DNA from: Gammaproteobacteria bacterium
GTDB taxonomy: Bacteria; Pseudomonadota; Gammaproteobacteria; Steroidobacterales; JABDKV01
Reading direction: 5' to 3'
Assembly (NCBI GenBank): GCA_013002045.1
Contig: JABDKV010000194.1
Span: 1 to 35,431, forward strand
DNA: 35,431 nucleotides
Positions 23,109 through 27,988 of the stretch are shown here, one piece after another. A model generated the notes under the pieces. The model saw only the letters and a list, made by a program, of their open reading frames with translations. It made no database searches and was not told the origin of the DNA. The position numbers were made by a program, and so were the translations under genes. The first letter of the stretch is position 1. Each line of letters opens with the position of its first letter.

Positions 23109-23945
23109 CTAGATACGTGTACGTACTTCCAGTAATTCCGGGAAAAACGAGATATTGACGGCCTTGCGCAGGAATTTCACACCCGATGAGCCACCGGTAC
23201 CGCTCTTGTAGCCGATAATGCGCTCGACCGTCTTGACATGACGAAAGCGCCACAGCTGGAAGTTCTCTTCGAAGTCGACCAGTTTTTCGCACATGTCATA
23301 AGCATCCCAGTACTGGTCCGGGTTTTGATAAATCTCCAGCAAGGCGTCTACCACACCGGGATGCGATTCGTAGGGCAATTGCCAATCGCGCTCGAGTCTT
23401 TCCGCCGGGATGGGCAGACCGCGACGATGCAGGTAGCGCAGGAATTCGTCATAAACACTGGGATTCTCAAGTATCCCGGCCAGTGCACGACCATTGGCGG
23501 TATCGGTGCCGTGGATCTTCAGTACCTGGGCATCCTTGTTCCCGAGAATGAATTCGAGCGAACGGTACTGCAGCGACTGGAACCCCGATGCGGTACGCAG
23601 GACATGCCGCATCTGCGAGTACTCGCTCGGTGTCAGCGTTTCCAGCACCGCCCACTGGTTGAACAGCTGTTGCTGGACCAGCTTGACCCGGGCGATGATT
23701 TTCGTGCAGCGCTCGACATCGTCGCGGCGAATAAAGTCAATAGCGGCGCTGAGCTCATGCAACATGAGCTTGAACCACAGCTCCGAAACCTGGTGCTGGA
23801 TTATGAACAGCATCTCGTCGTGATGGGGGGGATCGGCCAGTGGATTCTGCGCCGTCAATACCTTGTCAAGACCGAGATAATCGCTGTAGGTCAACTCCTG
23901 GGTCTCAACCCGGGCCATGCCCTTTTCGAGCTTGCGTTTTGTCAT
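23109..23945 (-). CDS. kynA: Tryptophan 2,3-dioxygenase
   Basis: A 278-residue heme dioxygenase that opens the indole ring of tryptophan to N-formylkynurenine. The substrate base is H51 in [14 protein letters not shown], the [16 protein letters not shown] region holds the substrate arginine, and the heme ligand is H236 in [15 protein letters not shown]. The substrate loop GTGGSSG follows. The ATG at 23945 gives the usual bacterial length and lies about 40 bp after a candidate promoter. The frame stays open to 24101 but that part is unlike the family, and an ATG at 23918 is possible. It heads an operon with tyrosine-pathway genes rather than with kynureninase or kynurenine formamidase genes. 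Confidence 0.95.
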
Positions 23946-23986
23946 AGTTACCAGTGTAAACGGCCGGCGACCGGCATGGGGCGAGG

Positions 23987-24014
23987 ATTCTACGCGGCTT
24001 GTGGCAGCGCACAA
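23987..24014 (-). promoter_or_regulatory. Candidate promoter of the tryptophan dioxygenase operon
   Basis: On the minus strand TTGTGC (complement of 24009-24014) and TAGAAT (complement of 23987-23992) are 16 bp apart. The -10 matches five of six bases, the -35 only three of six. It would start transcription about 35-40 bp before the ATG at 23945. Confidence 0.4.
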
Positions 24015-24035
24015 GGTATGTTGCGGCGCATACGG

Positions 24036-24041
24036 TATAAT
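24036..24041 (+). promoter_or_regulatory. Perfect -10 box upstream of the 2-oxo acid dehydrogenase operon
   Basis: TATAAT lies about 97 bp before the TTG start at 24138, in the divergent region. No good -35 is found at 16-18 bp, so an activator may be needed. It is back-to-back with the minus-strand promoter candidate. Confidence 0.35.
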
Positions 24042-24125
24042 GCCGCGCGCCGCCGGGCCGTCCACACGCCCCCGCAACGGCCCAACCCAGCAACAAAACA
24101 CGCCGTGGCACTAAAGCCCCGGCAA

Positions 24126-27436: not shown

Positions 27437-27450
27437 GGCGGCGCAGCAGT

Positions 27451-27478
27451 CTTGCGCAAGCTGACTTTGTAAGCACAA
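27451..27478 (+). repeat. Direct repeat, copy A (imperfect)
   Basis: This 28-bp stretch starts CTTGCG and contains AGCTGACTTTGT. It matches 27616-27643 at about 23 of 28 positions. It starts 15 bp after the E2 stop, before the REP-like palindromes. Confidence 0.65.
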
Positions 27479-27479
27479 G

Positions 27480-27573
27480 GGCGGCGCAGCCGCCGTAGGA
27501 GGGGCTTCAGCCCCGACTCTTCCCGGCTGTCCGGGCTGTTCAGCGGAAGAAACGCAGCTGAAGCCGCTCTCAC
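27480..27573. repeat. REP/BIME-like palindromic repeat pair
   Basis: A hairpin GGCGGC-GCA-GCCGCC (27480-27494) is followed by GTAGGAGGGGCTTCAGCCCC (27495-27514). The second part resembles REP sequences of Pseudomonas and Xanthomonas relatives (GTAGGAG plus a GGCTTCAGCC stem). A divergent inverted partner, CAGCTGAAGCCGCTCTCAC, lies at 27555-27573. Paired inverted REPs form a BIME. Such elements are moved by RAYT transposases coded elsewhere and can halt RNA decay or act at transcript ends. No RAYT gene is in the window. Assignment is by recall of the motif, not by search. Confidence 0.6.
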
Positions 27574-27615
27574 GATAGCGTCTGCGATGCGACCCGACGT
27601 CTGCTGATCCCCAAT

Positions 27616-27643
27616 CTTGCGATAGCTGACTTTGTGGGCACAT
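27616..27643 (+). repeat. Direct repeat, copy B
   Basis: This is the second direct copy of the 27451-27478 sequence. It overlaps the left arm of the 144-bp element. The right arm of that element is a third, inverted copy of the core AGCTGACTTTGT. Confidence 0.65.
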
Positions 27644-27767
27644 GCCTTTCGAGGCGTCGTGCGCGACGAGTGAAGCAGGACGCCCGAACGAGGCGCGCCC
27701 GATTCTGTCAGGCCATGGATGGCCTGACAGATTTAGCCGCGAAAGGCATGTGCCCACAAAGTCAGCT
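27624..27767. repeat. 144-bp element with perfect 28-bp inverted arms and nested hairpins
   Basis: Arms at 27624-27651 and 27740-27767 are exact reverse complements over 28 bases (the left arm starts AGCTGACTTTGTGGGC). Inside are a small hairpin (CGTCG/CGACG, 27655-27668) and a 13-bp-arm hairpin with a 2-base loop (27704-27731, TCTGTCAGGCCAT then ATGGCCTGACAGA). As RNA or extruded DNA this would form a three-way branched structure. No flanking target-site duplication is obvious. It could be a MITE-like or REP-related mobile palindrome, or a structured 3' end of the E2 transcript. Confidence 0.75.
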
Positions 27768-27988
27768 CTCTCCCGAAGCCGTTTTCCATCCGAAATCGCT
27801 GCCAAAGCACTCCGGCTTCCCTTGTACGGCGACTGATGCGGCGTTGCGCCCAAGCCACCCCCAGACTCCCTGGCACGGAGGCTGTTGCGCGTGGGCGGCC
27901 GCAACCGCCCTAAAGCTGGCAGGCACGCGGCGGCTCAGGTGTTTATAATTCCGATAGCGTCCCGCCCGCAACAGAATAAGGCACGGAT
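27768..27988. other. Rest of the E2-gdhB intergenic region
   Basis: No gene is seen here. A short GGGCGG/CCGCCC hairpin with a 6-base loop lies at 27893-27910, just upstream of the TATAAT box at 27944. Nothing else in this stretch is recognised. Confidence 0.4.
27944..27949 (+). promoter_or_regulatory. -10 box of the glutamate dehydrogenase gene
   Basis: A perfect TATAAT lies 39 bp before the ATG at 27989. There is no good -35 at 16-18 bp; CTGGCA at 27916-27921 is too far away. AAGG at 27978-27981 is the likely ribosome binding site. Confidence 0.45.

Follow-up and report, generated by a model that had tools for sequence, protein, structure and literature searches.

The locus studied here lies in a window of 35,431 nucleotides (the whole stretch of DNA that was analysed) from a gammaproteobacterial draft genome, and raises the question of what a long palindrome is doing in the spacer that runs from the stop codon of an acyltransferase E2 gene (27436) to the start of an NAD-glutamate dehydrogenase gene (gdhB, 27989). 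The gdhB gene lies downstream on the same strand and starts 221 bp past the end of the element. A sequence-only reading of the window had offered two answers, a new non-autonomous mobile palindrome or a structured RNA.

Fold of the element in the window

The 28-bp arms reported by that reading are exact, 27624-27651 and 27740-27767 on the plus strand being complementary throughout, and both positions are also paired in other copies. When mismatches are allowed, the pairing extends to 27621-27655 with 27736-27770 (35 nt, 94 %). The chance of perfect 28-bp arms occurring within about 200 nt in 35 kb was estimated at less than 1e-8, in agreement with the statement that chance could not explain them. 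Above this basal stem, GGC at 27653-27655 pairs with GCC at 27736-27738 (columns 38-40 and 122-124 of the own-genome alignment) and closes a three-way junction carrying the two nested hairpins noticed earlier, each delimited here by pairing, compensatory changes and a loop census. Hairpin 1 (27659-27700, plus strand) has purine-rich internal loops and a pentaloop, AGGAC (27677-27681), closed by C27676-G27682. Hairpin 2 (27704-27731, plus strand) is, as DNA, the palindrome of 13-bp arms and a 2-base loop that had been described, with GG at its centre; as RNA it is instead an 11-bp stem with the hexaloop AUGGAU (27715-27720), which is a C-ANGGAY-G site. In hairpin 1 the alignment places G-A and A-G opposites at 27668-27669/27690-27691 and 27672-27673/27686-27687, where tandem G-A pairs are predicted to form, and in relatives the same stem positions often hold G-A opposites instead of Watson-Crick pairs. 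An alternative pairing of hairpin 1 (GCGUC with GACGC), present in some folds, was discarded as it is broken in copies L045 and L051. Both strands were folded, a check proposed with the original observation. The RNA has a folding energy of -101.9 kcal/mol, whereas shuffled sequences average -55.3 (z -10.5; no shuffle was as low), and the minus strand folded as DNA has z -12.3.

Other features were observed around the element. The left flank and a remnant of the 5' arm of a truncated second copy are present at 27447-27477 on the plus strand (84 % identity, E 0.02; repeat D1). A REP-like hairpin pair, to which no strand was assigned, occupies 27494-27574 (inverted repeat I2) and consists of GTAGGAGGGGCTTCAGCCCCGA and a decayed inverted partner; such hairpins also flank many other copies. 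A TATAAT sequence at 27944-27949, about 40 bp 5' of the gdhB start, lies between the element and gdhB, which may therefore be transcribed from a promoter of its own, 3' of the element. Elsewhere in the window, the translation of an open reading frame at 23109-24101 (minus strand) resembles tryptophan 2,3-dioxygenase, as judged from its sequence.

Copies, covariation and loop conservation

The search of the genome and its relatives that had been suggested showed a multicopy element, with about 28 copies in its own genome and 1 to 21 in related genomes, which clearly excludes the adverse outcome that the sequence-only reading had allowed for, a unique sequence without other copies. The draft genome (3.1 Mb, 339 contigs) contains no fewer than 26 copies, and probably about 28: a whole-genome search, leaving out hits between the elements' own arms, found 29 related places, two of which may be halves of one copy, and 28 matches were obtained with the covariance model R2. 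These figures may be underestimates, because many copies run into the end of a contig. Among the own-genome copies, at least three types of arm and one further divergent copy can be told apart; what they have in common is the core, not the arms. Two copies (L015 and L020), both near contig ends, combine a left arm of one type with a right arm of another; they were set aside as probable misassemblies through the shared core. Carriage as phage or plasmid cargo was rejected, since the element had no match in the phage and plasmid collections and its core pattern no hit in viral contigs.

In a sample of the order, 17 of 97 genomes, including its own, contained matches. Related genomes carry from 1-3 copies up to 7 (G340), 15 (G341) and 21 (G358, a single contig), and such widely differing numbers indicate that amplification probably happened more than once. 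Among named relatives, convincing copies occur mostly in uncultured Woeseiaceae and otherwise in metagenome-assembled genomes (MAGs) named only as proteobacteria; a Thiogranum MAG has a weaker copy. A class-wide search with R1 was too insensitive. Pattern hits in actinobacteria, Paraburkholderia, Rhizobium and Planctomycetota do not form the structure and were taken as chance, and nine weak hits in G016 (for example L052) look like a different dispersed family of long palindromes. In five Woeseiaceae copies (L094, L105, L114, L116 and L118), the element is preceded at about 40-150 nt by a further conserved domain that appears to be structured (AGTCGCTCGGACA... and CTCGCTTTGTG...). In G358, several copies have another hairpin element, with AGGGAY loops, about 100-300 nt upstream and often in the opposite orientation, and one copy has a c-di-GMP-I-GGC riboswitch (71.8 bits; L191:2453-2543, plus strand) about 230 nt downstream.

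Compensatory changes were found in all three helices, at 32 of 54 pairs, in a plain MAFFT alignment of the own-genome copies (0 of 500 shuffles were as high), and at 41 of 48 pairs in a plain MAFFT alignment of 20 diverse members. An alignment of 51 distinct members, which was fitted to the model and so leans towards it, has them at 44 of 48 pairs, with a covariation score of 0.707 against 0.170 when shuffled. The compensatory signal of shuffled and slid controls was far lower than that of the real helices. In the basal stem of the 51 members, 22 of 24 pairs have changes on both sides; the arms vary yet covary. On the sense strand, G·U outnumbers A·C in the arms by 35 to 4 in alignment A5, 27 to 3 in members retrieved with an arm-independent pattern, and 56 to 11 in the widest set, these counts coming partly from related, non-independent copies and the own-genome copies alone giving a small excess. 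Folding of the sense strand as RNA would be expected to leave such an excess, which therefore speaks for a folded RNA; folding of single-stranded DNA, which could also favour G-T over A-C, is less likely. The earlier argument that perfect arms imply recent origin or selection is upheld for selection, which the strong compensatory changes and strand-specific G-U pairs favour, while the origin need not be recent, since the arms differ in divergent copies and are still paired there.

The conserved part of the element is the loops and not the arms, a point that the sequence-only reading had missed, as it had the presence of many copies. Hairpin 1 has the loop ANGGAY in 25 and AGGAY in another 25 of the 51 distinct members, and the last (CATGGATTG) has an AUGGAU loop that is not closed by the usual pair; hairpin 2 has ANGGAN in 45 and AGGAN in 6. 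In 50 of the 51, both loops are ANGGAN or AGGAN closed by C-G, and every base occurs at the position N between A and GGA. Genomes G358 and G341 have hexaloops in hairpin 1, though most training rows of the model have a pentaloop there.

Relation to TwoAYGGAY and CsrA

TwoAYGGAY is an RNA that has been without a known function since 2010. Its Rfam model (RF01731) matched 27618-27773 on the plus strand at 39.6 bits, below the gathering score of 43, and two other own-genome copies at 44.6 and 43.1 bits, above it; none of 14 control genomes had a match. The likeness lies in a long variable external stem, two hairpins with GGA loops and possible tandem G-A pairs in a stem. In the element, the external stem is long and poorly conserved, its arms varying and covarying, the tandem G-A pairs are read from the alignment alone, and hairpin 2 is GCC-AUGGAU-GGC. 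The presence of AYGGAY in both hairpins, which characterizes TwoAYGGAY, is seen in some relatives (for example L051 and the G341 copies) but not in the window copy, where hairpin 2 has AUGGAU and hairpin 1 has AGGAC. The element further differs from TwoAYGGAY in the AGGAC of hairpin 1 throughout its own genome, in being GC-rich, and in its 15-28 copies in some genomes. As the architecture is shared but RF01731 leaves most of the wider family in relatives unrecognised, the element is, as judged from its predicted structure, a TwoAYGGAY-like variant rather than a member.

The loops correspond to a protein-binding motif. A review of CsrA gives an ANGGAN hexaloop for RsmE and a SELEX consensus, RUACARGGAUGU, found mostly in hexaloops; most of the published SELEX ligands have short stems (PMC7652899), so very stable hairpins may bind CsrA less well. 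The CsrA reading, arrived at here from the loop sequence, had already been put forward for the Rfam TwoAYGGAY RNA in 2014 (PMC4333381). Across the 51 members the element has what is usual in CsrA-binding RNAs, ANGGAN loops closed by C-G and arranged as paired sites, with hairpin 1 of the window one nucleotide short (a loop of 5 nt against the preferred 6). The small RNAs that sequester CsrA (CsrB/CsrC and RsmX/Y/Z) likewise bear GGA motifs in hairpin loops, expected to fill both sites of the CsrA dimer, but they carry many sites in one RNA, whereas the element, as a putative RNA, has two sites per locus, a long handle and many loci. A csrA gene is present in the same genome (G000:C255:30831-30986, E 1.3e-25) and was matched in 31 of the 39 genomes searched. 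Three element-bearing relatives among those 39 (G001, G003 and G004) lacked a csrA match; the adjacent aspartokinase gene is not fully matched in them either, so that an assembly gap is likely, and their lack of csrA was not taken as counter-evidence.

We consider it probable that the element is an amplified, TwoAYGGAY-like structured RNA that would bind CsrA from intergenic, mostly 3'-end sites. The plus strand would fold so that the long, sequence-variable basal stem displays the two GGA-loop hairpins side by side. The structured RNA envisaged by the sequence-only reading is supported as to RNA-like structure by the compensatory changes and strand-specific G-U pairs. In the proposed mechanism it would be transcribed either as a small RNA of its own or together with the upstream dehydrogenase operon, in whose 3' untranslated region it would lie. 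The two loops (C-ANGGAY-G or C-AGGAY-G) could then bind one CsrA dimer, and the many copies could jointly titrate or buffer CsrA, or tag their own transcripts for CsrA-dependent stability.

Genomic location, dispersal and rival explanations

Neighbouring genes were convergent at 34, tandem at 26 and divergent at 5 of 65 copies, those for which an ad hoc gene caller resolved both neighbours, three loci that had been fetched twice being counted once. The element favours intergenic regions other than divergent ones, mostly in 3'-end positions. A sense-strand bias relative to upstream genes was considered and dropped, since strand cannot be read from convergent contexts and the two orientations are balanced in tandem ones. 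The E2-gdhB spacer of the relative G001 is short and without the element, an empty site of the kind that the sequence-only reading had suggested looking for, and the gltA junction of G010 has an insert that contains the element and is missing from its congeners; copies have thus been gained or lost. Some copies are vertically inherited, as the Woeseiaceae copies L095 and L113 have both neighbouring genes in common between species. Outer inverted repeats enclosing the element and upstream sequence were observed in G010 (about 38 bp; L152, at the gltA junction) and G341 (about 24 bp), so the full unit may be 330-480 nt.

This dispersal could also be that of a selfish or neutral palindromic repeat of the ERIC, REP/BIME or MITE kind, in which the hairpin would serve mobilisation of single-stranded DNA by an enzyme acting in trans and the loops would be the recognition sites of that enzyme. 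Multicopy dispersal, presence and absence between relatives, the REP-like hairpins among which copies lie, the larger outer inverted repeats and the one Y1 transposase gene of the genome are all in keeping with such a repeat, which we nevertheless regard as unlikely. The single Y1_Tnp gene (L031:1200-2000) is flanked by GTCACTGTCCCC repeats unrelated to the element, visual inspection of printed flanks revealed no target-site duplication, the arms covary freely where terminal repeats would be conserved, and the loops have, in consensus, exactly the sequence of an RNA-protein recognition motif. The specific search for an autonomous element, which covered Y1_Tnp, found no transposase with matching ends. 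The mobile palindrome first suggested is therefore borne out in its dispersed copies and its absence from the same junction in a relative, but not by any target-site duplication or transposase link. ERIC, nemis/Correia and YPAL are palindromic, intergenic, multicopy elements of 100-200 bp, and the element is alike in these respects; it differs in that its arms covary and are not conserved, its conserved sequence is in the loops and it has no common terminal repeat. The common terminal inverted repeats and target-site duplications of MITEs are likewise missing, since the arms differ between copies. Like REP/BIME associated with RAYT transposases, the element comprises hairpins dispersed between genes, and typical REP hairpins adjoin many copies, but it is about 140 nt long with a three-way junction. 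In the assembly, which is 91 % complete, no RAYT gene flanked by the same hairpin was found, and a RAYT/REP origin was rejected, the only Y1 transposase gene having a different flanking repeat.

Rather less probable is a 3'-end element whose long stem stabilises or ends the transcripts of neighbouring genes without CsrA. About half of the resolved intergenic contexts are convergent, divergent ones are rare and the stem is extremely stable, as such an element would have it; against this, the 3' arm is not followed by a U-tract in the window copy or in most others, and a pure stabiliser would need neither invariant loops nor a three-way junction. A cis-acting leader controlling gdhB is very improbable, for although the element lies upstream on the same strand and TwoAYGGAY is listed as cis-regulatory in Rfam, 221 bp and the TATAAT sequence separate it from the gdhB start, other copies adjoin unrelated genes, mostly at their 3' ends, and the E2-gdhB spacer of a relative is without it.

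Beyond a CsrA-binding RNA, a wider proposal is put forward more tentatively, with somewhat less than even confidence: the copies may form a dispersed CsrA decoy system of tens of loci, spread by a repeat family and separately amplified in several families of one gammaproteobacterial order, with stems that diverge but stay paired. The link of TwoAYGGAY to CsrA was proposed from motif matches, and we know of no experimental test of it. The family described here has many members with the C-ANGGAY-G loop, any base at N, and 15-28 copies in some genomes, which makes the CsrA hypothesis directly testable. Repeats between genes might, on this view, serve as a distributed sponge for the global regulator CsrA, and the bacterium from which the window comes may carry dozens of dispersed, putative CsrA-binding RNAs.
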